Shown here: positions 36,877 through 61,054 of the stretch, in pieces
Layout of the letters: the number at the start of each line of letters is the position of its first letter
How positions within the stretch are numbered: position 1 is the first letter of the stretch
Source of the DNA: Rhodococcus gordoniae
Lineage (GTDB): Bacteria > Actinomycetota > Actinomycetes > Mycobacteriales > Mycobacteriaceae
Assembly: GCF_001646655.1 (NCBI RefSeq)
Contig: NZ_LPZN01000003.1
Location: 372,001 to 436,000, forward strand
Reading direction: 5' to 3'
DNA: 64,000 bases
Translations under genes and position numbers: made by a program
Notes under the pieces: model-generated
Seen by the model: the letters and a program-made list of their open reading frames with translations, nothing else
Databases searched by the model: none
Told to the model about the DNA's origin: nothing

Positions 36877-38430
36877 TCAGCGGTAGGACGCCCGCAGCGT
36901 CTTCTTGTCGAGCTTGCCCAGTGGTGTCAGCGGCAGCGAGTCGAGGAAGTCGACCGACTTGGGTGCGTGCACCGAACCCTTTGCCGCGCGCACCTTCTCG
37001 ATCAGTTCCTCGGCCGGTACCGACTGCCCCTCGCGCAACACGACGCACGCTTTGACGGCCTCGCCCCACTTGGCGTCGGGCACACCGACGACGGCCACGG
37101 ACGCGACCGCCGGGTGCGACGAGATGGCGTCCTCGATCTCGCGGGGGAAGACGTTGAACCCGCCGGTGACGATCATGTCCTTCTTGCGATCGACGATCGT
37201 CATGAAGCCGTTCTTGTCGGCGCGCGCGACGTCGCCGGTGTGCAGCCATCCGCCTCGCAGAGCGTCGGCGGTCTCTTCCGGCTTGTTCAGATAGCCCTTC
37301 ATCACCAGCGGACCGCGCACGCAGATCTCGCCGAGTTCGCCCTGCGGCACCTCGTTCAGGTCGTCGTCGAGCAGACGGACGTCGAGCCACGGCACGGGCC
37401 GGCCGCACGACGCGAGGCGCCCCGGATCGTCGGCCAGGTGCTCTTCCTTGCGCAGTACCGAGATCGTCATGCCGCATTCGGACTGGCCGTAGAACTGGAA
37501 GAAGACAGGACCGAGCCGCTCGATCCCCTCGCGCAGGCGGGACGGCGACATGGCCGAGGCGCCGTAGAACAGGGTCTCGAGGCTCGACAGGTCGCGGCTG
37601 TCGACATCCGGGTGGTCGAGCAGCATGTAGATCATCGTCGGCACGAGCATGGTCGCGTTGATGCGGTGCTTCTCGATCGTTTCGAGCACGAGCGCGGGGT
37701 CGAAGTGGGGCAGCACGTAGAGGCATCCACCGCGCAGGAGCGTGGGGACGAAGAACGCCGCACCGGCGTGCGAGAGTGGGGTGCACACGAGGAAGCGAGG
37801 CTGCTCGGGCCACTGCCACTCGGACATCTGGATCTGGTTGAGGGCCGCGCCCGAACGGAACGAGCCCATCACGCCCTTCGGCTTCCCGGTGGTGCCGCCG
37901 GTGTAGACGATGGACGAGGTGTCCTCGATGTCGACGGGCGCGGAGACGAGCCGCTGCTCGGTGAACTGCTCCGACAGGGCGAGAATGTCGGTTCCGACCG
38001 AGGACGGGCCGAGAGAGAACAAGTTCTTCAGGGTCGGCACCTGCTCGCGCAGCTCGGCGGCGCGCTCCTCGAAGTGGCCGGGATCGAAGATCAGGGTCTC
38101 GATCCCCGCATCGGTCGAGATGTACAGGTGGTCGGAGAGCGACCCCATGGGGTTCAGCGCGGTGTTGCGGCAGCCGGCGACCATCGTGGCGCCCATCGAG
38201 ATGAGCACCTCGGGCCGGTTCTTGGAGAGCATCGCCACGGCCGATCCCTGCCCGACCTCCACGGATGCGAGCGCCTGCTGGAACCGGCTGATGGCGGCGC
38301 GCATCTCCGCTCCGGTGAGGACGACGTCACCGAGGTGCAGGGCGGGGCGGTCGGCGCTGCGATCGAGCGCGGTGATGAGGAGATCGGGCGTGAATGCGGG
38401 ACGGTAGAGGTCGGCGTACTCCTCGGGCAT
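36877..38430 (-). CDS. Acyl-CoA synthetase (FadD-like AMP-forming ligase)
   Basis: 517 residues of the ANL superfamily. P-loop-like motif SSIVYTGGTTGKPKGVMGS near 175, FYGQSECGMTIS (A5) near 320, GWLHTGDVARADKNGFMTIVDRKKDMIVTGGFNVFPREIE (A7-A8, near 400-440), and the catalytic Lys in LPLTPLGKLDKKTLR at the end. It activates a carboxylate as adenylate and then CoA thioester. The substrate is not known; in this context a steroid side chain or ring-derived acid is plausible. ATG 38430 with GGAAGGA upstream. Divergent from a flavoprotein gene, with a KstR-type box between. Confidence 0.9.
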   Translation of the reverse strand: MPEEYADLYRPAFTPDLLITALDRSADRPALHLGDVVLTGAEMRAAISRFQQALASVEVGQGSAVAMLSKNRPEVLISMGATMVAGCRNTALNPMGSLSDHLYISTDAGIETLIFDPGHFEERAAELREQVPTLKNLFSLGPSSVGTDILALSEQFTEQRLVSAPVDIEDTSSIVYTGGTTGKPKGVMGSFRSGAALNQIQMSEWQWPEQPRFLVCTPLSHAGAAFFVPTLLRGGCLYVLPHFDPALVLETIEKHRINATMLVPTMIYMLLDHPDVDSRDLSSLETLFYGASAMSPSRLREGIERLGPVFFQFYGQSECGMTISVLRKEEHLADDPGRLASCGRPVPWLDVRLLDDDLNEVPQGELGEICVRGPLVMKGYLNKPEETADALRGGWLHTGDVARADKNGFMTIVDRKKDMIVTGGFNVFPREIEDAISSHPAVASVAVVGVPDAKWGEAVKACVVLREGQSVPAEELIEKVRAAKGSVHAPKSVDFLDSLPLTPLGKLDKKTLRASYR

Positions 38431-38496
38431 GGTCGTCCTTCCGGTGTGCTGTGACGGTCCGTTGTGTGACGTCACCGGTCGGCGTTCCGCGTTGTG

Positions 38497-38521
38497 GTGA
38501 CCATCACCTGCCGATGGTCAC
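38497..38521. promoter_or_regulatory. Strong inverted repeat in the fadD/reductase intergenic region
   Basis: Perfect 9-bp inverted repeat GTGACCATC-N7-GATGGTCAC. About 25 bases to the left is a further palindrome GTGACGTCAC (38466-38475). Both are in a 250-base divergent gap, so a regulator probably binds here; its identity is unknown. Confidence 0.6.
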
Positions 38522-38544
38522 GATAACCGCTCCGAGCCTAAAAC

Positions 38545-38558
38545 TGAAACACGTTCCA
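38545..38558. promoter_or_regulatory. KstR-type operator candidate
   Basis: TGAAACACGTTCCA fits the TnnAACnnGTTnnA consensus of the cholesterol regulator KstR exactly. It lies between divergent fadD-like (start 38430) and reductase (start 38684) genes. KstR itself is not in the window. It is the only match I saw in the intergenic regions checked by eye. Confidence 0.55.
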
Positions 38559-38683
38559 CCCTGCCTTTTCGGTGATTTCTCGCCTAGAGTCTTGGGCACA
38601 TCCGGCGACGACGCCCGATTCGGACGCTCACCTCGGCGACGACGCCGATTCGTTGCCACAGCACACCACCCGGGGGATCGCGC

Positions 38684-39475
38684 ATGCAGTCGGCCACGTC
38701 GTCACCGAGCAAGACCGAGACGGCAGTCACCGCAACCGTCGTCGAACATCATCGTCTCCGGCACGACCTCGCCGTCGTCCGCCTCGAATGCGACGACGCC
38801 ATCGTCGATTTCCGCCCCGGCCAGTACGTCGACGTCGCTGTGCCGCAGCGCCCCACGCTGCCGCGTCGCCTCTCCCCCGCTCTGCCGCCCTCGTTGGACG
38901 GCAAACTCGAGTTCCACGTGCGCACGGTTCCGGGCGGCTGGGTGAGCGGGGCGATCGTCGCCGACACCCGACCGGGCGACGTATGGCAGATCGGCGCGGG
39001 CCGCGGCGGCGACCTCCACATCGACGACACCGGGCGCATCGTCATCATGGTGGCCGGCGGAACGGGCCTCGCGCCGCTGCGGTCGTTGATCCTCGACGCG
39101 GCGCGCCGGCCGGAACCCCCCCGCACCTTCCTGTTCACGGGCGCCCGCAACCCGTGCGACCTGTACGCCGCCGACATGCTCACCCTCCTGTCGGAGGCGC
39201 TGCCGTGGCTGACGGTGGTGCCGGTCGTGGAGACCCTCGAGATCCCCGACGTCCCCGACCCCTGGTTCGACCGCATCGCGCCGCGCATCGACGAGTTCGG
39301 ACCCGACCCCGACGAACTGCTCGAGGGCAGTATCGACGAGGTCGTCACGTCCTACGGCGCGTTCGGCGACCACCAGGTGCTCGTGTGCGGGCCGGCAGCC
39401 ATGGTGCGCACCACCGCTCAGCGACTGATCGAGACGGGCACCCCGGCCGAGAACATCCGCTACGACCCGTACTGA
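38684..39475 (+). CDS. Standalone ferredoxin-reductase-like FAD/NAD(P) oxidoreductase
   Basis: 263 residues: an FNR-type reductase with no globin and no [2Fe-2S] domain. FRPGQYVDVAVPQRPTLPRRLSPA (FAD, RRLS for the RxYS motif), AGGTGLAPLRSLILDAARRP (nucleotide), NPCDLYAADML, VVPVVE and LVCGPAAMVRTTAQRL. It closely parallels the C-terminal half of the flavohemoprotein at 33759, for example IPQRP and [10 protein letters not shown] there. It would pass electrons from NAD(P)H via FAD to an unknown partner; KshA needs such a partner, but KshB has a ferredoxin domain that this lacks. Its end overlaps the convergent KstD gene by 16 bases. Confidence 0.85.
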   Translation: MQSATSSPSKTETAVTATVVEHHRLRHDLAVVRLECDDAIVDFRPGQYVDVAVPQRPTLPRRLSPALPPSLDGKLEFHVRTVPGGWVSGAIVADTRPGDVWQIGAGRGGDLHIDDTGRIVIMVAGGTGLAPLRSLILDAARRPEPPRTFLFTGARNPCDLYAADMLTLLSEALPWLTVVPVVETLEIPDVPDPWFDRIAPRIDEFGPDPDELLEGSIDEVVTSYGAFGDHQVLVCGPAAMVRTTAQRLIETGTPAENIRYDPY

Positions 39476-41163
39476 GCGGCGTCGCGGGCAGCGATGTACC
39501 CGAACACCAGGCCCTGTCCGATCGTGGCACCCGCGCCGGGATAGCTGTGCCCGAACGCGTTGGCTGCGGTGTTGCCGATCGCGTAGAGACCGGTGATCGG
39601 GCTGCCGTCCTCCCGGAGAACCCGCGCCCGCTCGTCGGCGCGCAGGCCACCGCAGGTACCGAGATCGCTCAAGGTCATCTTCACCGCGTAGAGCGGCCCG
39701 CGGGTCAGGGGACGCAGGTTCGGATTCGGCTGGACCGTGGGGTCGCCGTAGTAACGGTCGTAGGCGCTGCGTCCACGCCCGAACTCGGAATCCGTTCCGG
39801 CTGCGGCGTCGTCGTTGAACTTGCCGAAGGTCGCCGCGAAGGTCTCCACCGGCACCCCCATCGATGCGGCGAGCTCTTCGGCCGTGGATGCGCGGTGGGC
39901 GATGCCCGCCTTGTACCAGGCTTCCGGGAGCGGCTGACGCGGGAACACCCCGGCCGCGAAGACATAGCTGTTGCGGTACTTCTGGTCGAACACGATCCAC
40001 ATCGACTCGACCGGATCACCGGTACGTTCGCGTTCGAGCACCAGCTGTCCGAAGGACATGTAGTCCGACGACTCGTTCGCGAACCGTCGTCCGGTCTGAT
40101 CGACGATGAAGGAACCGGGCAGGGAACGCTCGGCGAGCATGACCATCGGCGGCCTACCCGGGCGGGTCGGTGCAACGGCGGGGAACCACCATGCCTGATC
40201 CATGAGGTCGAGATCGGCGCCGACCTCCTGGGCCGCCTTGATCGCGTCGCCCGTGTTGGTCTCCGCGCCGAGGCTCTCGTGATCGAGCAGGTTCTCGGAC
40301 TGGTACTTGCGCCGCATCGCCATGTCGTGATCGAAACCGCCCGCGGCGAGCACCACACCGCGACGCGCGGTCACGGTGACCTCCCGCCCGTTCTGCGCCA
40401 CGACCGCACCGGTCACCCGGTCACCCTCGGTGACCAGACGCACCAGCGAGGTCTCGGTCCACACCGGCACCCCCGCCTTCAGCACACCCGCGAACAGGCC
40501 CGCGGCGATGGCCTGTCCACCGGCGACGTATTCACGCTTGACGGCGAGTCCGGCGACGCCCTGTGCCAGCCGCTTGAAGATGCGCGGGAAACCCTTGTGC
40601 GGCACGCGCAGCATGAGGTTCATCCACTTGTAGTCGGCGCCCGTGGTGGGCATCGGCAGGCTCGCCTCCATGAGTCCCGGACGCAGCCGCGACCGTTCCT
40701 CTCCGAGCACCGACAGGTCGAACGGCAGGCATTCACAGCTGCGGCCCACCGCCGAACCACCCGGAAGTTCGGGGTGGTAATCGGAGTAGCCCTCGGCCCA
40801 GAACAGCTTCATGGGAGTGGTGCGGCGGAGCATCTCGACCGTCTCGGTCCCGTAGTCGACGAACGCTTCGCCTCGCTCGACGGGGGCGGTACCGTCGACG
40901 ACCGACCGGACGTAGGTGTGACCACGCTCGACGGTGTCTCCCGAGCCCGACTCCTTCAGCACGGGATTGGCCGGCACCCAGAAGGCACCACCGGAGCGGG
41001 CGGTGGAACCGCCGACATATTCGGATTTCTCGACGATGAGCGCCGACAGTCCCGCTTCGTGCGCGGCGATCGCGGCGGCCATACCTGTACCCGACCCGAT
41101 CACGAGCAGGTCGACGGTGGTGTCCTGGGCGGGTACCACGGGCGGTACGGATGTCGGGGCCAT
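39460..41163 (-). CDS. FAD-dependent 3-ketosteroid dehydrogenase-like protein (KstD family, divergent type)
   Basis: 567 residues. N-terminal FAD motif LLVIGSGTGMAAAIAAHEAGL, then GGSTARSGGAFWVPANPVL near 52 and VLAAGGFDHD near 280; the C-terminal YAIGNTAANAFGHSYPGAGATIGQGLVFG block is the KstD/fumarate-reductase-like FAD end. The KstD catalytic tyrosine position before GN (YAIGN) is kept. It groups more with KstD3/Rv0785-like proteins than with the classical KstD1 (next such gene at 45980). Likely reaction: dehydrogenation of a 3-ketosteroid ring. ATG 41163 with AAGGAG upstream. Confidence 0.85.
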   Translation of the reverse strand: MAPTSVPPVVPAQDTTVDLLVIGSGTGMAAAIAAHEAGLSALIVEKSEYVGGSTARSGGAFWVPANPVLKESGSGDTVERGHTYVRSVVDGTAPVERGEAFVDYGTETVEMLRRTTPMKLFWAEGYSDYHPELPGGSAVGRSCECLPFDLSVLGEERSRLRPGLMEASLPMPTTGADYKWMNLMLRVPHKGFPRIFKRLAQGVAGLAVKREYVAGGQAIAAGLFAGVLKAGVPVWTETSLVRLVTEGDRVTGAVVAQNGREVTVTARRGVVLAAGGFDHDMAMRRKYQSENLLDHESLGAETNTGDAIKAAQEVGADLDLMDQAWWFPAVAPTRPGRPPMVMLAERSLPGSFIVDQTGRRFANESSDYMSFGQLVLERERTGDPVESMWIVFDQKYRNSYVFAAGVFPRQPLPEAWYKAGIAHRASTAEELAASMGVPVETFAATFGKFNDDAAAGTDSEFGRGRSAYDRYYGDPTVQPNPNLRPLTRGPLYAVKMTLSDLGTCGGLRADERARVLREDGSPITGLYAIGNTAANAFGHSYPGAGATIGQGLVFGYIAARDAAQYGS

Positions 41164-41236: not shown

Positions 41237-42172
41237 TCACCGGGAGATCCGCCCGTCGACCAGGCTACGCATCATCTTCCACACCTCCTGCCGCGCCGGC
41301 TCGGTGAGCGAGAGCGCAGGGAAGGTCAGGAATCCGTGGAACAGGCCGTCGAATCTGCGGTGCTGCACGGACACTTCGGCTGCGGCGAGGCGTGCGGCGT
41401 AGTCGTCGCCGGACGAGCACGGCGGATCGAGTTCGGCGGTGACGACGACCGCCGAGGGCAGTCCGGCGAACGTTTCGGCGCGGGTCGGGATCAGGCGGGG
41501 ATCGTCGGTGCCGTCCGGTGCGTACTGCTCCCAGTACCACCGCATCGCCGCCGCGGAGTTGTAGTAGCCGGTCCCGTACTTCCGGTACGACTCGGTGTCG
41601 AAGTCGTCGTCGATCACCGGATAGAACAATGCCTGACCGAGCACCGCCGGTCCGCCCTTGTCGCGCGCGGCGAGGGCGACGGTGGCGGCGAGGTTTCCAC
41701 CGGCACTGTCGCCGGCGACCACTATGCGCGCCGGGTCTCCTCCGTACGACGCGATGGCTGCGGCCGCCCAACCGAGCGCGGCGTACATGTCGTCGTGCGC
41801 GGCCGGCGCAGGATGTTCCGGGGCCAGCCGGTAGTCGACGGATACGACGACGGCCCCGACGCCGTCCGCCATCGACCGGCAGAACTCGTCGTGACTGTCG
41901 AGATCGCAGAAGACGAACCCACCTCCGTGCGCGAACACGACGACCGGGAGGGCGGTCTCGGGGGACTCCGGACGGTAGAGGCGCAACGCGAGGTCGCCTC
42001 CGGGCCCGTCGACGACGAGATCGTGCACCTCACGCATGGCGGGGAGGTTCCGGAGCGGACCGCGACGACTGCGGATGATCTCCCGGAGTTCCGTCGGCGG
42101 AATCGTCGTGACGTCCGGAAAACCCGCCTCCAGGGTCTTCAGCATGGACTCCACCTCGGGATGCAACGGCAT
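41237..42172 (-). CDS. Alpha/beta hydrolase (HSL-type esterase)
   Basis: 311 residues of the hormone-sensitive-lipase family. Oxyanion motif FAHGGGFVFCD near 80, nucleophile GDSAGGN near 155, Asp in VVTAELDPPCSSGDDYA near 253, and His in FDGLFHGFLTFP near 283. It cleaves small carboxylic esters in the cytoplasm. In this cluster a plausible substrate is the acetate ester made by the steroid monooxygenase (testosterone acetate), which is inference. ATG 42172 with GGAGGAGA upstream. Confidence 0.9.
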   Translation of the reverse strand: MPLHPEVESMLKTLEAGFPDVTTIPPTELREIIRSRRGPLRNLPAMREVHDLVVDGPGGDLALRLYRPESPETALPVVVFAHGGGFVFCDLDSHDEFCRSMADGVGAVVVSVDYRLAPEHPAPAAHDDMYAALGWAAAAIASYGGDPARIVVAGDSAGGNLAATVALAARDKGGPAVLGQALFYPVIDDDFDTESYRKYGTGYYNSAAAMRWYWEQYAPDGTDDPRLIPTRAETFAGLPSAVVVTAELDPPCSSGDDYAARLAAAEVSVQHRRFDGLFHGFLTFPALSLTEPARQEVWKMMRSLVDGRISR

Positions 42173-42342: not shown

Positions 42343-43245
42343 ATGACCGACGGATCGAACCGCAGTTCGGCGGTGCGCATCGGAATCACCAGTCCGATCG
42401 TCACGCGGGTCCCCGGGGTCTCCGCCCGATGGGAAGCGGGCGCGGGTATCGAGGAACTGTCGCAGATCGCGGTCGCCGCCGATCGCGCGGGATTCCACCA
42501 CCTCACCTGCAGCGAACATGTCGCCGTACCGGTGCCGGTGGCCGAGACGCGAGGTGGGACCTATTGGGATCCGCTGGCGACCCTCGGCTTCCTGGCGGCC
42601 CGCACCGATCGGATCCGGTTGGTCACCCAGGTTCTCGTCCTCGGCTACCACCATCCTCTGGAGATCGCCAAGCGCTACGGCACTCTCGACACGGTCAGCT
42701 CGGGACGGCTGACGCTGGGACTCGGCGTCGGTTCGCTCGAGGAGGAGTTCGCGTTGCTCGATGCGCCGTTCACCGATCGTGGCGCCCGTGCGGACGACGC
42801 CCTCGCGGCACTGCGCGCTTCCCTCTCACAGCGCGAACCCTCCTATCGTGGAGAATATTTCGAGTACTCGGAGGTGGTCGTCGACCCCTGTGCCGTGCAA
42901 CCGCGGGTGCCGATGTGGATCGGCGGCCGCACCCCGCGTTCCCTACGACGCGCGTGCGAGTTCGGGGACGGCTGGGTGCCCTTCGGTCTGGCCTTCGACG
43001 ACATGAAGGCGATGCTCGCGAAGAGACAGCCGCCGCCCGGGTTCGAGATCGTGCTGTCGGTCGCCCGGCTCGACCCGCTCGGCGATCCCGATGCGACGCG
43101 GAGGCGACTCGACCGGGCGATCGCAGCGGGCGCGACGATCGTCGGCGCCGGTGTGGACGCCGGATCCGCCGACCACTACTGCGACCAGCTCTCCGCCCTC
43201 GCCGAACTGTTCGGCGAGGAATTCGGTGATCTCGACGAGCGGTGA
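42343..43245 (+). CDS. Luciferase-like (F420- or FMN-dependent) oxidoreductase
   Basis: 300 residues of the LLM family. Strands and loops in order: VRIGITSPIVTRVPG, AVAADRAGFHHLTCSEHVAVP, RIRLVTQVLVLGYHHPLEIAKRYGTLDTVSSGRLTLGLGVGSLEEEF (the conserved central part) and PRVPMWIGGRTPRSLRRACEFGDGWVP. The HPLEIAKRYGTLD and GLGVG features are common in the TIGR03619 F420-dependent group, but FMN cannot be excluded. ATG 42343 with AAGGAGA upstream. Substrate unknown; steroid-related by context. Confidence 0.87.
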   Translation: MTDGSNRSSAVRIGITSPIVTRVPGVSARWEAGAGIEELSQIAVAADRAGFHHLTCSEHVAVPVPVAETRGGTYWDPLATLGFLAARTDRIRLVTQVLVLGYHHPLEIAKRYGTLDTVSSGRLTLGLGVGSLEEEFALLDAPFTDRGARADDALAALRASLSQREPSYRGEYFEYSEVVVDPCAVQPRVPMWIGGRTPRSLRRACEFGDGWVPFGLAFDDMKAMLAKRQPPPGFEIVLSVARLDPLGDPDATRRRLDRAIAAGATIVGAGVDAGSADHYCDQLSALAELFGEEFGDLDER

Positions 43246-43254
43246 CCCCGACAT

Positions 43255-43271
43255 CTCCCGCTGTCCGGGAG
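43255..43271. promoter_or_regulatory. Inverted repeat CTCCC-N7-GGGAG upstream of the ketosteroid isomerase gene
   Basis: CTCCC-N7-GGGAG, part of the longer CTGTCCGGGAGAACG context, lies about 80 bases upstream of the isomerase start. The CTGTNCGG core recurs before kstD (47597) and the steroid monooxygenase (52126). Confidence 0.45.
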
Positions 43272-43347
43272 AACGTCGATGCCGTGTGCCGGTAGGTCGC
43301 TAGCGTCGGCGCGACACCTTTCGTCCCGCACCATCACAGGAGCGACC

Positions 43348-43731
43348 GTGACCGTTTCCGACGCCCGTACGCAGCGCATCCGCGCCACCGTGCACGCCTA
43401 TCTCGACGCCGTGGCAGCGGGGGTGGCGGTCGACATCGCCGCCCTGTATGCCGACGACGCCACCCTGGAGGATCCTGCCGGCAGCGAACCCCGCGTCGGC
43501 AAGGCAGCGATCACCGAGTTCTACAAGGCTGTCGAAGCCACGGAGAACACCACCGAGCTGCTCACGCTCCGGATCAGCGGAGCGACCGCCGCCTTCCACT
43601 TCCGCGTGGTCACGACGGCGGGTGAACAGACCTACGAAGTGGAGCCCATCGACGTCATGACGTTCGACGACGAGGGACGAATCACCAGCATGCGAGCGGT
43701 CTGGGCGCCGAGCGACATGCGTGTTCGCTGA
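43348..43731 (+). CDS. ksi: Ketosteroid isomerase (3-oxo-delta5-steroid isomerase)
   Basis: 127 residues, the size of bacterial KSI. The catalytic residues of the family line up: Tyr18 (in HAYLDAV), Asp42 (in ATLEDPAGSEP, the catalytic base) and Asp102 (in VEPIDVMTF, which hydrogen-bonds the oxyanion). Such a match of the EDPAGSEP and PIDxMTF blocks is characteristic. It moves the double bond from delta5 to delta4 in 3-oxosteroids such as 5-pregnene-3,20-dione. GTG 43348 with AGGAG six bases upstream. An inverted repeat lies upstream. Confidence 0.93.
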   Translation: MTVSDARTQRIRATVHAYLDAVAAGVAVDIAALYADDATLEDPAGSEPRVGKAAITEFYKAVEATENTTELLTLRISGATAAFHFRVVTTAGEQTYEVEPIDVMTFDDEGRITSMRAVWAPSDMRVR

Positions 43732-43811: not shown

Positions 43812-44306
43812 ATGACAGCGGAACACGCGGTGCTCGATCCTCGACGGATCCGCGACGTGATGAGCAATTTCTGCACGGGCGTCACGGTGATCACCGCGCT
43901 CGACGGCGACGAGCCTCTCGGGTTCGCGTGCCAGTCGTTCGTGTCCGTATCACTGGATCCGCCGCTCATCTCGTTCTGCCCCGCCCGCACCTCGAAGACG
44001 TGGCCGAAGATCCGGGAGGTGGGCACCCTGGCCGTCAACGTCCTGTCCGAGAGCCAGCGCACCCTGTGCGGTGCGTTCGCGGTGAGCGGCGGCAACAAGT
44101 TCCGCGGGGTGCGCTGGGAACGAGGCGACAACGGCGCTCCGGCCATCGAGGGAGCCCTCGCGCGGGTCGAGGCGACCGTGGAGACCGAGTACGAGGCCGG
44201 CGACCACACGATCGTGCTGGCACGGGTCACCGGGCTGACGTCACTGCACACCAACGGCCCCCTGCTGTTCTTCCAGGGCACCTACGGCGGTTTCGACCGC
44301 GGATGA
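43812..44306 (+). CDS. Flavin reductase (HsaB-like)
   Basis: 164 residues of the flavin reductase-like domain. [41 protein letters not shown] and [15 protein letters not shown] are the HsaB/HpaC-type FMN-binding and substrate-binding loops, with GNKFRGVRW and a final FFQGTYGGF. It would reduce FMN/FAD with NAD(P)H for a two-component monooxygenase; the HsaA-like gene at 57895 is a candidate partner. ATG 43812 follows GGAG eight bases upstream. Confidence 0.88.
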
Positions 44307-47558: not shown

Positions 47559-47615
47559 TAGGCAGAAGGTGAAGAGTCGCGACACGATCATCTCGCTGTA
47601 CGGGAGAAAAACGTC

Positions 47616-47703
47616 CGATCGGTCGCGCTCGACCGTGGTGCGGTCGGTCCCGCTCGACCGCGGTGCGGTCAGTCCCGCTCGACCGCGGTGCGGTCAGTCC
47701 CGT
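47616..47703. repeat. 25-bp tandem repeat at the 3' end of hspR
   Basis: About 3.5 copies of a 25-base unit: 47616-47640 (three mismatches), 47641-47665, 47666-47690 (one mismatch) and a partial 47691-47703. Each unit holds a small GACCGC-GGT-GCGGTC hairpin. The hspR stop codon lies in the last, partial copy. Confidence 0.85.
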
Positions 47704-51938: not shown

Positions 51939-52117
51939 TTGTCTGACTCGTCCAACGGCAGGTCGTGGGAATTTGTTCCGGAGGTGACGAGCGTCACTCA
52001 TGTGCCCAATCCTGTCGGCTCGTCTGCCGCCGCGTCCGAAACGACCCGCTGGGCGGGATATGCCGGTGCCGTGCCGCTTCTCTCGGTCATAGCGTGAATT
52101 CACTTCATGAACCCCAG

Positions 52118-53966: not shown

Positions 53967-54791
53967 TCAGTTGCGCCCGTCGAACAACGCGTCCGGTCGT
54001 AACTTCTCGTTCAAGGTTCTCGCACGTTTGGATGCCAGGCGCTCGAACTGCTCGGGGTGGCTCGAGATCCAGAAGTCGTCGCGCACGATGCCGTCGAACA
54101 ACACCCGCGCGGCGTCGTCCGGCGCCATGCCTTCCCGGATCTGTTCACGCCAGAAACCGGCGTCGTCAGTGGTCGCGTCGCGGACCGGGACGTCCTCGAA
54201 GATGCGCGTGGCGACCTGGCCCGGACTGAACACCGAGACACCGATCTGCGGATACACCTCGGCGCATTCGAGATAGAGACATTCGGTGAGCGCCTGGACG
54301 CCGTGCTTCGACGCCGCGTAGGCCGTCATCCGCGGTGTGATGGCGATGCCACCCACCGAGCACGTGTTCACGATGTGCGACCGACGCGGGTCGGCACCCA
54401 TCCGCGGGACGAACGAGCGGATACCGTGGAAGACACCCAGCAGATTGACGTCGATCACCCGGCGCCACTCGTCGGCGGGAACCTCCCACGTGAAACCGAG
54501 AGATTCCAGCCCCGCATTGTTGAGAAGCACCGACACCGAACCGAATTCGGAGTACACCGCGTCCGCGAGGGCATCCACCGCGGCCGCATCACGGACGTCG
54601 GTCGGGATCACCAGCGCCGTGTGCCCGTCGGCTCGCAGCTTCGCCGCGACCGTCTCGGCACGGTGGGCGGAGACGTCCGCGAGCACCACGTTCATGCCGA
54701 GTTCGGTGGCCCGGCGGGCCGCGCTCTCCCCGATGCCGCTGCCGGCTCCGGTCACGACAGCGGTGCCGCCCGCAAGATCCTCGAATCGCAC
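53967..54791 (-). CDS. Short-chain dehydrogenase/reductase
   Basis: 274 residues: AVVTGAGSGIGESAARRA cofactor site, Asp after beta-2 (VLADVSAHR, NAD), NNAGLESLG near 90, Ser in TCSVGG, Tyr/Lys in YAASKHGVQAL. The C-terminal part (RFEDVPVRD, EKLRPDALF) matches SDRs found in steroid clusters, in my reading. A 17- or 3-hydroxysteroid dehydrogenase role is plausible by context. GTG 54791 with AGGAGG five bases upstream; 8 bases after the next gene's end. Confidence 0.85.
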   Translation of the reverse strand: MRFEDLAGGTAVVTGAGSGIGESAARRATELGMNVVLADVSAHRAETVAAKLRADGHTALVIPTDVRDAAAVDALADAVYSEFGSVSVLLNNAGLESLGFTWEVPADEWRRVIDVNLLGVFHGIRSFVPRMGADPRRSHIVNTCSVGGIAITPRMTAYAASKHGVQALTECLYLECAEVYPQIGVSVFSPGQVATRIFEDVPVRDATTDDAGFWREQIREGMAPDDAARVLFDGIVRDDFWISSHPEQFERLASKRARTLNEKLRPDALFDGRN

Positions 54792-54799
54792 GGTGCCTC

Positions 54800-55633
54800 C
54801 TACTTCACGCAGTGGCCGGCGTCGACGGGCAAAGTCACACCGGTGACGTAGCGGGATTCCTCGGATGCGAGGAACAGGCTCGCGTTCGCGATGTCCTCGG
54901 GCTCGATCAACGGCACCGGAAGCAGATGCATCGATTGCAGAGCCGCCTCGAATTGTTCCCGTGTCGGGTCCTCGGCACCCGGGCAGAAGGTGCGCATCGT
55001 GGCCGGGTTCTCGACCATCGGGGTCCGGGTGTTGGCGGGATGGATCGTGTTGACCCGCACCCGTTGCGGCGCAAGCTCGTTCGCGAGCGATTTCATCAGG
55101 CCCACGACACCGTGTTTGGCGGCGGTGTAATGGCCGACACTCACGAGCCCACGAAGACCGGCGATGGAGCTGATCAGCACGATCGAACCTCCGCGCCCGC
55201 CGTCCAGGATGTGGGGAATGGCCGCCTTGCACGTGCGCCACACGCCGGTCAGGTTGACGTCGAGCATGGTCTGCCAGCGTTCGGTGTCCATCTCGGTCGC
55301 CCGGCCCGAGGAGCTGATCCCCGCCGTCGCGCACACGACGTCCAGGCGGCCGAGTGTTGCGACCGCCTGCGCCACCGCATCGTCGAGCGACGGCTGATCG
55401 CGCACGTCCACCTCGAAGGGACAGATCTTCCGACCGAGCGATTCCACCAGTCGCACGGTCTCGGCGAGATCGTGGGGTGACGCACCGGGAGTGGTCGCAT
55501 GTTCGACCGGTGCGCACACGTCGACGGCGACGATGTCGGCGCCCTCCTGCGCGAACCGCACGGCCTGGGCGCGTCCCATACCTCGTGCCGCACCGGTGAT
55601 CAGCGCGACCTTCCCTTCCAGGCGTCCACTCAT
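54800..55633 (-). CDS. SDR, mycofactocin-coupled type (carveol dehydrogenase-like)
   Basis: 277 residues. ALITGAARGMGRAQAV cofactor motif and the insertion VCAPVEHATTPGASPHDLAETVRLVESLGR after beta-2 is the hallmark of the mycofactocin-associated SDR group (TIGR03971), where NAD is held non-exchangeably. Ser in LISSIAG, Tyr/Lys in YTAAKHGVVGL. It oxidises a secondary alcohol, probably passing electrons to mycofactocin. ATG 55633 overlaps the stop of the upstream SDR (ATGA). Confidence 0.86.
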   Translation of the reverse strand: MSGRLEGKVALITGAARGMGRAQAVRFAQEGADIVAVDVCAPVEHATTPGASPHDLAETVRLVESLGRKICPFEVDVRDQPSLDDAVAQAVATLGRLDVVCATAGISSSGRATEMDTERWQTMLDVNLTGVWRTCKAAIPHILDGGRGGSIVLISSIAGLRGLVSVGHYTAAKHGVVGLMKSLANELAPQRVRVNTIHPANTRTPMVENPATMRTFCPGAEDPTREQFEAALQSMHLLPVPLIEPEDIANASLFLASEESRYVTGVTLPVDAGHCVK

Positions 55634-56439
55634 CAGGCCACCTTCTGGGTCAGACCGCCGTCGACGATCATCTGCAGGCCGGTGACGTACCGGGATTCGT
55701 CCGATGCCAGGAACAACACCGCATTGCTCACGTCGACCGGTTCGATCCACGGCACGCGCAGGACCGTCTTCCTCGACAGCACCTCGGCGGCGTCGTCGGC
55801 GGTGGGAGCGTCGAGGTCGGGGCGCAGCCGCGCGAAGGTCGCGGGATTGAGCGTCATCGGCGTCGCCGCCGCACCCGGGTGGACCGTGTTGACGCGGATC
55901 GTCCGTGACCCGAGTTCGTTGGCGAGGGTCTTGGCCAGGCCCGTGACCGCGTGCTTCGCCGCCGAGTAGTGCGACGCCCCCGGTACGGCCTTGATCGCGG
56001 CGGTGGAACTGACGATGATCACCGAGCCCCCGGCGGGATCGAGTTCGGCGACACCGGCCTTGACGGTGTGCCAGGTGCCGGTGAGGTTGACGTCGATCGA
56101 CCGGTTCCAGATCTCGTCGTCGATCTCCCAGGACGGTCCCGGATTGTCACTGATGCCGGCGTTGGCGACCACGACGTCGAGCGGCCCGAGTTCGGACACT
56201 CCGGACCGCACCGCCGCGACCACCGCGTCGAAGTCGCGGACGTCCGCGGTTCCGGTGACGATCCGGCGCCCCGTGGCCCGCACGAGGCGGGCAGTTTCGG
56301 CCAATGCGGGCTCCGTGCGACCGCCCGGCAGATCCAGCGCGACGATGTCGGCGCCTTCCTCGGCCAGCCGTGTCGCGCACGCGCGACCGAGCCCACCTCC
56401 CGCACCCGTGATCAATACGGTCTTCCCCGTCATCCGCAT
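55633..56439 (-). CDS. SDR related to the mycofactocin-coupled group
   Basis: 268 residues. VLITGAGGGLGRACATRL, Asp in ALDLPGG, a shorter post-beta-2 insertion than its neighbour (RTEPALAETARLVRATGR), ANAGISDNPG near 95, catalytic Ser in VSSTAA, Tyr/Lys in YSAAKHAVTGL, and a C-terminal RYVTGLQMIVDGGL typical of the family. First gene of a three-SDR operon read leftwards. Likely acts on a hydroxysteroid or a side-chain alcohol. Divergent from kshA. Confidence 0.85.
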   Translation of the reverse strand: MRMTGKTVLITGAGGGLGRACATRLAEEGADIVALDLPGGRTEPALAETARLVRATGRRIVTGTADVRDFDAVVAAVRSGVSELGPLDVVVANAGISDNPGPSWEIDDEIWNRSIDVNLTGTWHTVKAGVAELDPAGGSVIIVSSTAAIKAVPGASHYSAAKHAVTGLAKTLANELGSRTIRVNTVHPGAAATPMTLNPATFARLRPDLDAPTADDAAEVLSRKTVLRVPWIEPVDVSNAVLFLASDESRYVTGLQMIVDGGLTQKVA

Positions 56440-56536
56440 GGTGCACCTGCTGTCGTCCGCACGATCCGTGTTTCCTTCCGACGTGGCTTGCCGTGAGGTG
56501 ACGCTAACCAGCGGGGACTCGCGTTCGGGAGGGTTT

Positions 56537-56553
56537 CTCCCACGTGGCGGGAG
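56537..56553. promoter_or_regulatory. Inverted repeat CTCCC-N7-GGGAG between the SDR operon and kshA
   Basis: Same arms and spacing as the site at 43255-43271 upstream of the isomerase gene. It lies in the 239-base divergent gap. Confidence 0.4.
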
Positions 56554-56678
56554 GGACGCGTCCGAGCCTTCGGTTCTTCGCGTTCCATCCAGCGGGAGGA
56601 ACTGTTTCCCTCCGACACGCCGATGAGTTCTATGAGGCAGATCACATATCTCTCCCCCATGACGGTACGGAGGAATTC

Positions 56679-57851
56679 ATGTCTCTCGACGCAACCCCGG
56701 CAGTCTCGGACGACGACATCGAGGTCCGCGAGATCGAAGCCGCGGCAGCCCCCACCCGCTTCGCGCGTGGCTGGCACTGTCTCGGTCTCCTCCGCGACTT
56801 CCAGGACGGCAAGCCGCACTCCATCGAGGCCTTCGGCACCAAGCTCGTCGTCTTCGCCGACAGCAAGGGACAACTCAACGTCCTCGACGCCTACTGCCGG
56901 CACATGGGCGGTGACCTGAGCCGCGGTGAGATCAAGGGTGACTCCATCGCGTGTCCGTTCCACGACTGGCGCTGGAACGGTAAGGGCAGATGCACCGACA
57001 TCCCCTACGCCCGCCGCGTGCCGCCGATCGCCAAGACCCGCGCGTGGACGACGCTCGAGCGCAACGGTCAGCTCTACGTGTGGAACGACCCGCAGGGCAA
57101 CCCGCCGCCGGCCGACGTCACGATCCCCGAGATCGCGGGCTACGGCACCGACGAGTGGACGGACTGGAGCTGGAAGACTCTGCGCATCAAGGGCTCGCAC
57201 TGCCGCGAGATCGTCGACAACGTCGTCGACATGGCGCACTTCTTCTACATCCACTACTCGTTCCCGCGTTACTTCAAGAACGTCTTCGAAGGCCACACCG
57301 CCACGCAGTACATGCACTCCACCGGCCGGGAGGACGTCATCTCCGGCACCAACTACGACGACCCCAACGCCGAGCTGCGTTCTGAGGCCTCGTACTTCGG
57401 TCCGTCGTACATGATCGACTGGCTCGAATCCGATGCCAACGGCCAGACCATCGAGACGGTCCTCATCAACTGTCACTACCCGGTGAGCAACGACGAGTTC
57501 GTGCTGCAGTACGGGGCGATCGTCAAGAAGCTGCCGGGTCTGTCCGACGAGGCGTCGGCCGGAATGGCCGCACAGTTCGCCGAGGGTGTGCAGCTGGGTT
57601 TCGAGCAGGACGTCGAGATCTGGAAGAACAAGGCACCCATCGACAACCCGCTGCTGTCCGAGGAGGACGGCCCGGTGTACCAGTTGCGCCGCTGGTACCA
57701 GCAGTTCTACGTCGACGTCGAGGACGTCACCGAGGACATGACCAAGCGCTTCGAGTTCGAGATCGACACCACCCGGGCGGTCGCGAGCTGGCAGAAGGAG
57801 GTCGCGGAGAACATCGCGAAGCAGGCCGAGGGTTCTGCCACGGCGTCCTAG
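56679..57851 (+). CDS. kshA: 3-ketosteroid 9alpha-hydroxylase, oxygenase component
   Basis: 390 residues. Rieske ligands Cys73, His75, Cys92 and His95 in AYCRHMGG and ACPFHDW; mononuclear iron residues match the family spacing: Asn181, His187, His192 in NVVDMAHFFYIHYSF, and an Asp later. FEGHTATQYMHSTGRED, VLINCHYPVSNDEFVLQYG and DGPVYQLRRWYQQFYVDVEDV are KshA blocks. It hydroxylates C9 of 3-ketosteroids, which opens ring B with KstD. ATG 56679 with GGAGG upstream. KshB, its reductase, is not in the window. First of kshA-hsaA-like-hsaC-like operon. Confidence 0.94.
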   Translation: MSLDATPAVSDDDIEVREIEAAAAPTRFARGWHCLGLLRDFQDGKPHSIEAFGTKLVVFADSKGQLNVLDAYCRHMGGDLSRGEIKGDSIACPFHDWRWNGKGRCTDIPYARRVPPIAKTRAWTTLERNGQLYVWNDPQGNPPPADVTIPEIAGYGTDEWTDWSWKTLRIKGSHCREIVDNVVDMAHFFYIHYSFPRYFKNVFEGHTATQYMHSTGREDVISGTNYDDPNAELRSEASYFGPSYMIDWLESDANGQTIETVLINCHYPVSNDEFVLQYGAIVKKLPGLSDEASAGMAAQFAEGVQLGFEQDVEIWKNKAPIDNPLLSEEDGPVYQLRRWYQQFYVDVEDVTEDMTKRFEFEIDTTRAVASWQKEVAENIAKQAEGSATAS

Positions 57852-57894: not shown

Positions 57895-59076
57895 ATGAGC
57901 TACGAAGTCCTGGCCTGTATCGAGGCCGCCGCCGACGACATCTTCGTCGAAGGCATCGAGGCCGAGCGGATCGGCAAGGTCGCCGACGCGACCGCCAAGC
58001 GCATGAAGGAGGCCGGCTGCATCCGCATGCTGCAGCCCAAGGAACACGGCGGCCTCGAGGCCCACCCGCGCGAGTTCGCGGAGACCGTCATGCGGATGGC
58101 GTCGATCAACCCGTCGGCGGGCTGGGTCCACGGCATCGTGGGCGTGCACCCCTGGCAGCTCGCGTTCGCCGACCCCCGGGTCCAGCAGGAGGTCTGGGGC
58201 GAGGATCAGGACACGTGGCTCGCGTCGCCGTACATGCCGGGCGGCATGTGCGTGCCGGTCGACGGCGGTTACACGTTCTCCGGCAGGTGGTCGTTCTCCT
58301 CCGGGACCGACCACTGTGACTGGGCGTTCCTCGGTGCCTTCGCGTGCAACCCGGACGGCAGTATGCAGATGCCGCCGCGAATGCTGCACGTGATCATTCC
58401 GCGCTCGGACTACGAGATCATCGAGGACTCCTGGGACGTCGTGGGTCTGCGCGGCACCGGCTCCAAGGACGTCGTGGTCGAGGACGCGTTCGTGCCCGAC
58501 TACCGCGTCATGGACTGCGACGAGGTCATCGACGGGACCGCGGTGCGCAAGTACGGCCGCACCGAGACGCTGTACCTGATGCCGTGGTCGAACATGTTCC
58601 CGCTGGGCATTACGTCGGCCACCATCGGCATCTGCGAGGGTCTCCTGCACCACGCCAACGAGTACCAGCGCGAGCGCATCAACCCGCAGGGCACCGCGGT
58701 CAAGGACGATCCGTACACGATGTTCGCGATCGGTGAGGCCACCGCGAAGCTGCGGTCGGCGCGGGATTCGCTGCTGGCCAACGTCGATCGCATGTGGGAT
58801 CTGGTCGACGCCGGCAGGACCCCGACGTTCGAGCAGCGCGCTCTGGGCCGCGAGACCCAGGTGAACGCGGCATGGCAGGCCGTCACCGCGATCGACCAGG
58901 TCTACGCCCGCTGCGGCGGCAACGCCCTGCGCATGGACAAGCCCATGCAGCGCTTCTGGCGCGACGCGCACGCCGGGCTGCACCACGCGATCCACGTTCC
59001 CGGCACCGTCTACCACGCCGCGACATTGAGCAGCCTCGGCGTGGACCCGCAGGGCCCGCTGCGTTCCATGATCTGA
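57895..59076 (+). CDS. HsaA-like flavin-dependent aromatic monooxygenase
   Basis: 393 residues of the acyl-CoA-dehydrogenase-fold monooxygenases. IRMLQPKEHGGL, SAGWVHGIVGVHPWQLAFAD, PRVQQEVWGED, FSGRWSFSSGTDHCDWAFLGAF and VVGLRGTGSKDVVVEDAFVP match the HsaA layout, with QRFWRDAHAGLHHA near the end. HsaA hydroxylates the phenol 3-HSA to 3,4-DHSA with reduced flavin from HsaB. The sequence is related but not identical to classical HsaA, so a paralogue for another phenol is possible. 43 bases after kshA. Confidence 0.87.
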   Translation: MSYEVLACIEAAADDIFVEGIEAERIGKVADATAKRMKEAGCIRMLQPKEHGGLEAHPREFAETVMRMASINPSAGWVHGIVGVHPWQLAFADPRVQQEVWGEDQDTWLASPYMPGGMCVPVDGGYTFSGRWSFSSGTDHCDWAFLGAFACNPDGSMQMPPRMLHVIIPRSDYEIIEDSWDVVGLRGTGSKDVVVEDAFVPDYRVMDCDEVIDGTAVRKYGRTETLYLMPWSNMFPLGITSATIGICEGLLHHANEYQRERINPQGTAVKDDPYTMFAIGEATAKLRSARDSLLANVDRMWDLVDAGRTPTFEQRALGRETQVNAAWQAVTAIDQVYARCGGNALRMDKPMQRFWRDAHAGLHHAIHVPGTVYHAATLSSLGVDPQGPLRSMI

Positions 59077-59119: not shown

Positions 59120-60052
59120 ATGACGAACCCCCATGTCGGCGGCTTCGGCACCGACATCCGCGCCCTGGGCTACGTGAAGGTCCAGACCGACAACATCGAG
59201 CGCTGGCGCACCTTCGCGTTCGACGTGCTCGGTTTCGCGAAGGGCTCCGGCCCGGACCCCGACGCCCTGTACCTGCGCATGGACGAGCGCGCCGCGCGCA
59301 TCGTCGTCGTACCGGGTGAGACCGACGAGGTCGTCACGGTCGGCTGGGAGGTCCGTGACCATGCCGCACTGGTCCGGGTCACCGAGGCCGTCGAACGCGC
59401 CGGCATCGCGGTCAAGCCGCTGTCGCTCGAGGAGGCGGACGCCCGCCGCGTCGAGGAGGTCGTCACCTTCCAGGATCCCGCCGGCACCACACTCGAGGTC
59501 TTCCACGGCGCGGTCCTCGACCACAGCCCGGTCGTGACCCCGTTCGGTGCCGAGTTCGTCACCGGCGCACAGGGTCTGGGTCACGTCGTGCTGCCGACGA
59601 TGGATCCGAACGGCACGTTCGACTTCTACACCGACGTCCTCGGCTTCCTGCCGCGCGGCGCCTTCCGGATCCCGGCGCCGCCGGAGTTCGGCCCGCTGCG
59701 GGTGCGTTTCCTGGGTGTCAACCAGCGTCACCACAGCCTCGCGCTGTGTCCGGCCCCGCACGGCGGTGCGCCCGGCCTGGTGCACATCATGGTCGAGGTC
59801 GACACGCTCGACGCCGTCGGGCAGGCGCTCGACCGTGTCGTGAAGGACGGCTTCTCGGTGTCGTCGACGCTGGGCCGCCACACCAACGACAAGATGGTGT
59901 CGTTCTACGTGCGGGCCCCCGGTGGCTGGGATATCGAGTTCGGCACCGACGGGCAGTTGGTGGACGAGACGTTCTACACGTCCGAGGAGATCACCGCGGA
60001 CAGTTACTGGGGCCACGACTGGTCCGGCAGCGAACCTCTCGCAGCGATGTAG
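59120..60052 (+). CDS. HsaC-like extradiol dioxygenase
   Basis: 310 residues, two VOC modules. Fe(II) ligands His155 (GLGHVVL), His222 (GLVHIMVEV) and Glu273 (WDIEFGTDG); second-shell His near 204 (NQRHHSLAL) and Tyr in SFYVRAPGG. It cleaves the catechol ring of 3,4-DHSA-type substrates between the hydroxylated and adjacent carbon. It follows the HsaA-like gene by 43 bases, and ends before a terminator. Compared with RHA1 HsaC it has a longer N-terminus. Confidence 0.9.
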   Translation: MTNPHVGGFGTDIRALGYVKVQTDNIERWRTFAFDVLGFAKGSGPDPDALYLRMDERAARIVVVPGETDEVVTVGWEVRDHAALVRVTEAVERAGIAVKPLSLEEADARRVEEVVTFQDPAGTTLEVFHGAVLDHSPVVTPFGAEFVTGAQGLGHVVLPTMDPNGTFDFYTDVLGFLPRGAFRIPAPPEFGPLRVRFLGVNQRHHSLALCPAPHGGAPGLVHIMVEVDTLDAVGQALDRVVKDGFSVSSTLGRHTNDKMVSFYVRAPGGWDIEFGTDGQLVDETFYTSEEITADSYWGHDWSGSEPLAAM

Positions 60053-60096
60053 CGCCACACGCTGCGCAGCCCTGTCCGTACAACCACAGATCGCTC

Positions 60097-60147
60097 CCCG
60101 AGGAGGGGGAACCCCATCCGGCCAGGACAACGGGTTCCCTCTCCTCG
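60097..60147. terminator. Hairpin terminator after the hsaC-like gene
   Basis: Inverted repeat CCGAGGAG(G)GGGAACCC / GGGTTCCC(T)CTCCTCGG with a loop of about 17 bases. Ends the kshA-hsaA-like-hsaC-like operon before the IclR gene. Confidence 0.65.
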
Positions 60148-60194
60148 GCATACGATCCGGGTGATCCACTTCACAAAGCGGCAAGAGTATGTCA

Positions 60195-60207
60195 CTATTC
60201 CTAATAG
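60195..60207. promoter_or_regulatory. Small inverted repeat upstream of the iclR gene
   Basis: CTATT-CCT-AATAG in an AT-rich patch 59 bases upstream of the iclR start. AT-rich patches are rare in this genome, so it may be part of a promoter or operator of this regulator. Confidence 0.35.
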
Positions 60208-60265
60208 AAATACCAACGTCAGCTGTGTTTCGTGGCAATCTTCGCCCGGATCGAGGGAGATATCG

Positions 60266-61054
60266 GTGACCGCACCCGCGACTGCAGACTCCACCCCCAC
60301 CGCGATTCTCGAACGAATCTCGCTCGTCCTGGACGCCTTCGACGGCCCGGGGCGCCTCACCCTCGCCCAGGTCGTCAGGCGGACCGGGCTCCCCCGCTCC
60401 TCCGCTCATCGGATGCTCGAACGCCTCGTAGAGATACGGTGGCTACGCCGCGAAGGCCGCGACTACGAGCTCGGCACCCGCCTGATGGAACTCGGCTCGA
60501 TCGCCGTGCACCAGAACCGCCTGCACAGCGCGGCCGCTCCGATCCTGCAGGACCTGCACCGCGCCACCGGTTATGTGGTGCATCTCGGAGTGCTCGACGG
60601 ATCCGATGTGCTCTATCTCGACAAGGTCGGTGGCCGGCTCGCTGCGGAGCTGCCCACCCGCGTGGGCAGCCGCTATCCCGCACGTGATTCCGCAATCGGC
60701 AAGACCCTGCTCGCCTACACGCCGGACGGCACCCACGACCTCACCGACTTCACTCCCGAACTGCGCAAGGTCCGGGAGATGGGCGTGGCGTACGAGGTGA
60801 GCCGGATCTCCGGGGGAATCGGCGTCATCGCGGTCCCGATCGGCCCCGTGGGCGATGTCGTCGCCGCCCTGTCCATCTGCGGACCGACCGGACACCTCGA
60901 ATTCGATCATCGTCACGCGGCCCCGGTCCGTATGGCGGCGAAAGCGATCCACCGATCCCTCACCGGACGTCCCCGCACCGCGCCGGCTGCGCCACGCCCA
61001 CGTCACCCCGGTCCGCCCGCCGCGACAGCGCACTCCCGCCTGCAATACGCCTGA
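60266..61054 (+). CDS. IclR-family transcriptional regulator
   Basis: 262 residues. N-terminal winged helix: ILERISLVLDAFDGPGRLTLAQVVRRTGLPRSSAHRMLERLVEIRWLRREG (about 12-62). Ligand-binding domain from about 85 with YVVHLGVLDGSDVLYLDKVGG, GSRYPARDSAIGKTLLAY and GVIAVPIGPVGDVVAALSICGP. The C-terminal 30 residues are Pro/Arg-rich and unlike the family. Probably regulates the adjacent kshA or SDR operon in response to a steroid intermediate (inference). GTG 60266 with GAGGGAG upstream. Confidence 0.88.
   Translation: MTAPATADSTPTAILERISLVLDAFDGPGRLTLAQVVRRTGLPRSSAHRMLERLVEIRWLRREGRDYELGTRLMELGSIAVHQNRLHSAAAPILQDLHRATGYVVHLGVLDGSDVLYLDKVGGRLAAELPTRVGSRYPARDSAIGKTLLAYTPDGTHDLTDFTPELRKVREMGVAYEVSRISGGIGVIAVPIGPVGDVVAALSICGPTGHLEFDHRHAAPVRMAAKAIHRSLTGRPRTAPAAPRPRHPGPPAATAHSRLQYA

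Follow-up and report, generated by a model that had tools for sequence, protein, structure and literature searches.

Steroid genes at the locus

In this study, the gene content, distribution and putative regulation of a steroid catabolic gene set were investigated in a 64,000-nucleotide stretch of Rhodococcus gordoniae DNA (the window, G000:C51:372001-436000), which belongs to a genome of 4.82 Mb in 114 contigs. The set surrounds a steroid monooxygenase gene and lies in a left and a right half on either side of a dnaK heat-shock operon, and it quite probably forms a co-regulated regulon for the catabolism of 3-ketosteroids (C21/C19) that 20-keto C21 steroids would enter by a step of their own. 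Gene calling was combined with family-profile searches of the window, the family libraries being run on the genes from 28504 rightwards, and the families named in an earlier, sequence-only reading were recovered as intact open reading frames (ORFs) with their catalytic motifs where that reading had placed them. Gene identities, co-occurrence and a shared palindrome were all computed.

The central gene (52170..53795, (+)) encodes a steroid monooxygenase of the type I Baeyer-Villiger monooxygenase (BVMO) class. Its product agrees with 4aos, the steroid monooxygenase of R. rhodochrous, at 489 of 531 aligned residues (92% identity), carries the BVMO fingerprint FTGDVFHTAHWP, and scores 1133 bits with its best family against 613 bits with the next one, phenylacetone monooxygenase, which confirms the identity first given to it. 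Three relatives in the same genus hold copies that are 90-92% identical. The R. rhodochrous enzyme acts on progesterone, as cited in passages of PMC12239570, and the product of 52170 would be expected to oxidise progesterone to testosterone acetate.

To the right of the monooxygenase, the oxygenase component of 3-ketosteroid 9alpha-hydroxylase, KshA, is encoded at 56679..57851 (+). The KshA_C domain (315.6 > 23.3), the Rieske CxH..CxxH and DX3DX2HX4H iron-site motifs, and 364 identical residues out of 387 aligned (94%) with R. rhodochrous KshA 4qdc, which we take to be KshA5, leave its earlier assignment standing. Two mycofactocin-coupled short-chain dehydrogenases/reductases (SDRs) at 54800..55633 (-) and 55633..56433 (-) pass TIGR03971 with 392 and 308.4 against 300; the SDR YxxxK motif is present, and the genome holds a mycofactocin radical-SAM gene (659.7 > 265). 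These two are candidate hydroxysteroid dehydrogenases, and oxidation of the 17-hydroxyl by the SDRs of the window may be proposed.

The genes that had been read as HsaA, HsaB and HsaC share the family likeness, but the plain identities do not hold, as all three score under the NCBIfam equivalog cut-offs. The HsaA-like flavin-dependent oxygenase (57895..59076, (+)) is a divergent paralogue with 354.6 under the cut-off of 450 for NF045629, and its nearest solved chain is 2or0 'Hydroxylase' at 512 bits, compared with 278 for 3afe. The HsaB-like flavin reductase, which lies in the left half (43812..44306, (+)), reaches 192.5 of 230 for NF045630. The HsaC-like extradiol dioxygenase (59120..60052, (+)), again a divergent paralogue, shows the extradiol signature and passes TIGR03213 (386.1 > 366.45), with 363.1 under 450 for NF045631. 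Within its own genome it shares 47% identity with the canonical copy, 67-70% with two further copies and 36% with another one, whereas the monooxygenase-linked copies reach 79-96% in seven genera and 71-76% in the Mycobacterium group g29 (35 neighbourhoods).

The genome holds four KshA genes by a PF19298 search and five HsaC-like genes; a PF00848 search of the genome gave one match, which is not KshA. The reductase encoded at C28:61110 is a possible KshB. The canonical HsaC is encoded on contig C28 (564.8 > 450). No HsaD match at E<=1e-30 was found in the window, which hence does not hold a complete 9,10-seco ring A/B cluster, while genome-wide there are four HsaD-family matches, with C28:18744 over the cut-off (517.8 > 400) and three weaker ones on C28, C34 and C89. 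Two more kshA/hsaA/hsaC sets accompanied by IclR genes were noticed at G000:C28:54-79 kb and C29:112-119 kb.

In the left half, two 3-ketosteroid delta1-dehydrogenases (KstDs) were recognized where only one had been listed. The listed gene (45980..47515, (-); start revised from a conserved start codon) is KstD1-type: it passes NF009474 'FAD-binding protein' (900 > 675), scores below the KstD models, and has 3-ketosteroid dehydrogenases as its nearest solved chains (396 bits). The unlisted one, at 39460..41139 (-), passes NF009479 with 1062 bits against 793; its homologues on pRHL1 and on N. farcinica plasmid 2 are 70-72% identical and lie within 15 kb of a BVMO gene. Passages of PMC5348764 report that the R. 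ruber KstD2 prefers progesterone and name ro09040 as a member of the KstD2 branch. The ketosteroid isomerase (KSI) at 43348..43731 (+) has the SnoaL/NTF2 fold and, in line with the earlier assignment, matches the solved enzymes 6p3l (99 bits) and 1ocv, a steroid delta-isomerase (70.5 bits), and retains the catalytic Asp that is Asn in 6p44. An HSL-family, LipP1-like esterase (41237..42172, (-)) carries Abhydrolase_3 with the HGGG and GDSAG motifs, scores 338.8 bits with the LipP1-type model NF058653, just below the cut-off of 350, and is a candidate for the hydrolase of the 17-acetate (steryl acetate).

Two regulator genes complete the right half, an IclR-family gene at 60266..61054 (+) with IclR_C and HTH_IclR, and a PadR-family gene at 61102..61806 (-) that scores 41 bits against 27.

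Conservation of the gene group around the monooxygenase

At E<=1e-150, 194 of the 401 family genomes gave a monooxygenase match, and mainly the most similar ones were sampled. We compared 65 monooxygenase neighbourhoods from 64 same-family genomes (55 fetched stretches, nine named loci and one second copy) with 20 control stretches, drawn from 20 of these genomes at a distance of about 400 kb. A partner gene was counted at a minimum of 40% identity within 9.2 kb of the monooxygenase; positions are those of tblastn matches and not of start codons, and neighbourhoods within one genus are not independent of each other. On this basis, HsaA and IclR were each found in 35 of the 65 neighbourhoods, HsaC in 34, PadR in 33, SDR 54800 in 30, the esterase in 29, KSI and KstD 45980 in 28 each, SDR 55633 and KshA in 26 each, HsaB in 24 and KstD 39460 in 22. 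In the controls, 11 of these 12 partner genes were never found (0/20) and SDR 54800 was found once (1/20). The grouping of these genes around the monooxygenase exceeds chance.

Within 15 kb, each half is represented by two or more genes, with no chaperone gene, in 24 of the 65 neighbourhoods (genera g9, g13, g20 and g23), and three, all from this genus, hold both halves together with the chaperones. A common compact order runs KSI-KstD / monooxygenase, HsaB, PadR, esterase, IclR-HsaC-HsaA-KshA. It is displayed with one gene missing in each of Nocardia cyriacigeorgica (L019) and N. sienata (L026), and in part in Skermania (L022) and R. rhodnii (L030). The ring genes of Prescottella G183 are flanked by the monooxygenase/clpB side and by hspR-dnaJ-grpE. 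KstD 45980 and the monooxygenase, which are neighbours in Nocardia, are separated in the window and across this genus by the heat-shock operon (47694..51785, (-)), made up of a MerR-family gene, labelled hspR by position only, with dnaJ, grpE and dnaK, and standing outside the steroid system. The two halves still belong together and are separated here by the dnaK operon. The sequence-only reading had proposed a candidate C21 catabolic island in one place, beginning at 36877; the grouping was right in substance, but the chaperone operon interrupts the set, so that one uninterrupted island was rejected, and the left boundary was drawn too far out.

The esterase was followed further in 35 genomes chosen, as were those for the genome-wide palindrome and PadR searches, from carriers of the monooxygenase, many with the cluster already seen, so that they are not a random sample. 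Each yielded 19-47 first-look esterase candidates, and in 29 of the 35 the best genome-wide match lay within 22 kb of the monooxygenase; matches outside the present genome are 50-83% identical. On pRHL1 (R. jostii RHA1), pLRE138 (R. erythropolis R138) and N. farcinica plasmid 2, the esterase (68-70% identity) adjoins a BVMO gene, the adjacency being judged from match spacing on the unannotated pRHL1 record and N. farcinica stretch. On pLRE138, KshA-HsaA-HsaC-BVMO-hydrolase-SDR-SDR are all on one strand. In two Nocardia genomes (G144 and G048), the esterase orthologue adjoins a homologue of KstD 39460 (78-79%), as it does in the window. A longer ORF that includes the esterase orthologue with an N-terminal Dabb domain (PF07876) was seen in two Rhodococcus relatives (L153:9135-10814 and L154:8688-10448), and a Dabb protein also occurs near the pLRE138 cluster; passages of PMC12239570 count a Dabb protein among the progesterone-induced genes of Caenibius.

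Several of these observations weigh against a linked and conserved set. The right half stands alone in seven neighbourhoods and the left half in five (15 kb), and 26 of the 65 show neither half with at least two genes (19 without and seven with chaperones), so that in many cases the monooxygenase has no such set close to it. No linkage between esterase and monooxygenase was seen in six of the 35 chosen genomes (G144, G048, G095, G108, G142 and G183), and several linked esterases are just 50-55% identical. The plasmid monooxygenases that adjoin the esterase are only 62-63% identical to 52170, and their substrate may differ from that of 52170.

Among the other genes of the locus, the FadD8-like ligase (36877, (-)) and the reductase (38684, (+)) were rejected as pathway members. 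Their matches lie near clpB or the dnaK operon in four relatives (G064, G081, G047 and G021; the ligase also in G025b) whose fetched stretches hold no match to KshA, HsaA, HsaC, KSI or KstD 45980, and for this reason both are probably chromosome backbone; nor do their homologues lie near the monooxygenase in the Nocardia-type clusters. A classical SDR (53967..54755, (-); adh_short) is found within 9.2 kb of the monooxygenase in 3/65, in close relatives only. In this genus, the KSI and flavin reductase genes have an LLM-family gene on either side: an F420/LLM-type oxidoreductase (42373..43245, (+); TIGR03619 237.9 > 166.9), which is 77-83% identical in three same-genus relatives, and an MsnO8-family LLM monooxygenase (44389..45378, (+); TIGR03558 405.6 > 166.95). 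They were considered, in view of PMC12239570, as conserved type II BVMOs of the system and rejected, since they lie within 9.2 kb of the monooxygenase in 0/65 and 3/65 neighbourhoods, the latter in this genus alone. The protein encoded at 45462 (+) has no family match, and no tRNA was found in the window.

The Mycobacterium group g29 (L021, L023, L025, G029, G177 and G301) shows a different make-up, with HsaA-like, IclR and SDR genes in some members; in its 11 neighbourhoods, PadR was not matched at 40% within 15 kb, and the palindrome described below did not occur at up to one mismatch. One Speluncibacter genome (G025; L018 and L027) has two close monooxygenase copies, one beside IclR and PadR and the other beside an hspR-dnaJ-grpE-dnaK operon.

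A shared palindrome and its candidate regulator

By comparing the intergenic stretches of the window, an operator-like palindrome, TCTCCC-N7-GGGAGA, was first spotted. Only two perfect sites exist in the genome, one per half: TCTCCCGCTGTCCGGGAGA at 43254..43272 upstream of the KSI gene and TCTCCCGGTCCGTGGGAGA at 61877..61895 upstream of padR, the latter being perfect at the same place in 3/3 same-genus relatives. The divergent promoter between the SDR and KshA genes bears a site with one mismatch (56536..56554) and a second conserved site of weaker match (56581-56599). The promoter of KstD 45980 has a partial site (47589..47607), with the right half GGGAGA perfect and the left half poor. At the monooxygenase promoter, a CCCG-CTGGG-CGGG core (52042..52060) has the operator spacing with a matrix score of just 3.8, and it lies inside a 21-bp block that is invariant in four aligned same-genus sequences; the same alignment also has a 26-bp invariant run on the dnaK side. 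The 384-bp intergenic stretch that the monooxygenase and dnaK promoters have in common (51786-52169) contains conserved CTCAAG/TTGAG elements resembling HspR sites, and heat-shock control of 52170 is conceivable.

Because the window was also where the palindrome was discovered, arguing from its uniqueness there is circular in part, which counts against the argument, and other genomes are a fairer test. In 1,579 kb of neighbourhoods, 35 sites with up to one mismatch were detected, ten of them perfect, compared with one site and no perfect one in the 400 kb of controls, and three sites in 168 kb of plasmid stretches. About 220 bp or less upstream of a cluster gene lie 29 of the 35 neighbourhood sites, among them those at the Nocardia KstD/monooxygenase divergent promoter. 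When up to two mismatches are allowed, sites occur in the promoters of KshA (15/27), KstD 45980 (15/28), SDR 55633 (13/30), KSI (12/33), the monooxygenase (21/65) and PadR (6/35), some of the counted genes having one divergent promoter in common, against 10 of 1000 random 340-bp control pieces. FNR (1/12), HsaA (1/36) and IclR (1/37) gave single sites. At the same tolerance, no site was found at the dnaK, dnaJ, grpE, hspR, clpB, FadD, HsaB, HsaC and SDR 54800 promoters. In 16 further genomes, of which ten were already known to carry a perfect site in the fetched stretch, there were 18 perfect sites versus none for the reversed pattern, and 12 of the 18 surround the monooxygenase or stand close to the esterase. 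In two genomes with an unlinked esterase (G108 and G095), a perfect site precedes the esterase match by about 1.07 kb, some 0.28-0.36 kb ahead of a longer ORF that fuses a Dabb domain to the esterase; it is the sole perfect site genome-wide in G108 and one of two in G095. The palindrome thus suggests that both halves are linked as one co-regulated system.

Several counts speak against so close a link. With one mismatch allowed, the genome has ten sites, of which four are in the cluster and six outside it, where the reversed control pattern gives three. The esterase promoters bear a site in just 3/36 cases, and among the unlinked esterases, those of G142, G183 and G048 have no palindrome upstream and that of G144 merely a site with two mismatches, 1.2 kb upstream. 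The site at KstD 39460 (41229, two mismatches) is absent upstream of its homologues (0/25), and an apparent operator at the IclR promoter (60242, one mismatch) was rejected as not kept in relatives. A further candidate, a perfect palindrome at 52118 beside the monooxygenase start, was likewise discarded, not being kept in three relatives. None of the ten sites of the genome is on C28 or C29, the contigs of the two other kshA/hsaA/hsaC sets.

The regulon is probably PadR-controlled, and the PadR-family protein is the proposed binder of the palindrome. Each of the 35 chosen genomes gave exactly one PadR match (E<=1e-15), and none of these matches was more than 22 kb from the monooxygenase. Neighbourhoods with a site number 19 with PadR and four without it, and those with no site 16 and 26, respectively; the four site-bearing neighbourhoods with no PadR in the fetched DNA and the 16 PadR-bearing ones with no site at up to one mismatch count against PadR. 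For IclR, the corresponding numbers are 18 and five with a site, and 18 and 24 with none. IclR associates almost as well as PadR, so that PadR binding is no more than the likelier reading. Binding by IclR instead of PadR, which we hold to be rather unlikely, draws on its equal frequency (35/65) and on its presence in 18 of the 23 motif-positive neighbourhoods, against 19 for PadR. It sits poorly with the palindrome at the padR promoter in the window and in all three same-genus relatives, as compared with 1/37 of the iclR promoters, and with five neighbourhoods that have IclR but no PadR and display no site, although 16 of 35 with PadR display none either.

Proposed route, alternatives and known systems

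From the sequence we infer the substrates, the order of the steps, the role of the SDRs, the binding by PadR and the function of the set throughout. Pregnenolone would undergo 3-hydroxyl oxidation and isomerisation by KSI before the monooxygenase step, in which the product of 52170 would convert progesterone to testosterone 17-acetate. The esterase 41237 would remove the acetate, a mycofactocin-coupled SDR may oxidise the 17-hydroxyl, KstD (39460 and/or 45980) and KshA would open ring B, and HsaA with HsaB, then HsaC, would open ring A, with the products passing to HsaD and later enzymes encoded elsewhere in the genome. The PadR of the cluster would most likely bind TCTCCC-N7-GGGAGA and also control the padR promoter. 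A route of this kind had been lined up in the sequence-only reading; its Baeyer-Villiger entry, esterase and ring-opening steps gain support because the monooxygenase shares 92% of its residues with an enzyme already characterised, the genes co-locate across genera and the palindrome links the halves, while the role of the SDRs is still a proposal.

It is doubtful whether the system serves C21 steroids exclusively. Passages of PMC8228715 rank kshA5 of R. rhodochrous with the kshA genes that are expressed most strongly on androstenedione, and KshA5 is reported to be broad in range. Both points speak for a broad, mainly C19 (testosterone/androstenedione) 3-ketosteroid system to which the monooxygenase adds C21 substrates as an accessory, as do three Prescottella genomes in which KshA, HsaA and HsaC lie about 14-19 kb from the monooxygenase; such a system is less likely than not, for the monooxygenase, esterase and ring genes co-locate, including in a plasmid copy, and the palindrome occurs at the monooxygenase promoter. 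At the other end, it is unlikely in our view that a PadR regulon, marked by the palindrome across Rhodococcus, Nocardia and related genera, serves a dedicated C21 route, in which the 41237-type esterase would be the missing steryl acetyl hydrolase, the mycofactocin SDRs would oxidise the 17-hydroxyl, and the dedicated KshA/HsaA/HsaC would open the rings with the C17 side chain or acetate attached.

The order of ring and side-chain removal was weighed separately. KshA, HsaA/B and HsaC might act while the C17 side chain or the 17-acetate is attached, on substrates such as 1-dehydroprogesterone or boldenone acetate, with the side chain removed later or in parallel, which would explain a separate ring-opening set beside the canonical one. 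The canonical set on C28, with its HsaC and HsaD over their cut-offs, the further KshA and HsaC copies, and the scores of the window HsaA/B/C under the androstane equivalog cut-offs agree with such an order, and 1-dehydroprogesterone is an observed intermediate in Caenibius according to passages of PMC12239570; the preference of KshA5 for substrates lacking the C17 side chain, reported in a review, speaks against it, and we hold it to be rather unlikely. A chance neighbourhood of two unrelated steroid gene groups flanking the dnaK operon, for which the split by that operon and the probable backbone genes beside the left group might be adduced, is very improbable, given that the two groups occur together in 24 neighbourhoods of four genera where the surrounding 15 kb are free of chaperone genes, and given the palindrome on both sides. 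The system proposed here, with its C21 entry step, looks like a catabolic regulon that straddles an unrelated chaperone operon and whose parts a single operator joins. As a hormone pollutant, progesterone is common. The cluster supplies a named candidate acetate hydrolase and a candidate regulator for which the DNA site is defined, and it lets one test why this genome keeps four KshA and five HsaC-like genes.

With reference to the literature (including the consulted parts of PMC7807495, PMC6153880, PMC11279926 and PMC4064121), the system can be placed as a variant, now better defined, of steroid catabolic clusters that are already known. Our literature search, with most subscription journals outside it, found no paper joining the cluster, PadR and progesterone, and no account of an operator or regulator of KshA5. 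The R. rhodochrous proteins 4aos and 4qdc are the closest counterparts, alike in the BVMO fingerprint and in the Rieske and iron-site motifs; passages of PMC12239570 indicate that the work on 4aos gave an enzyme and not a catabolic pathway, and that a progesterone pathway is not described in R. rhodochrous, the source of the classical monooxygenase. The canonical 9,10-seco HsaABCD performs the same reaction types as those expected of the HsaA/B/C-like proteins of the window, which differ from it in their scores and in the lack of HsaD, the canonical copy being on C28. In the pdc cluster of Caenibius tardaugens, as reported in passages of PMC12239570 (2025), the BVMO and LLM convert progesterone to testosterone acetate, and the acetate hydrolase is unknown there. 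This cluster is alike in its type I BVMO step, pathway logic and LLM genes. It differs in consisting of BVMO, LLM, and TetR and LuxR regulators, with a BVMO 30.4% identical to the R. rhodochrous one, whereas the window set includes ring genes, KSI, an esterase, and IclR and PadR as its regulators.

The sequence-only reading knew of no description of this exact set. The legend of Fig. 5c in the paper on R. ruber Chol-4 (PMC6498646, 2019) does name matching genes, listing kstD, kshA, hyd, hsaC, iclR, padR, ntaA and chnB consecutively under 'Steroids pathway', which fits the right half of the window together with KstD and HsaB. The earlier remark hence calls for a qualification, although the legend calls chnB 'cyclohexanone monooxygenase', and the text passages of that paper available to us make no mention of a C21 role, an esterase, a KSI or an operator.

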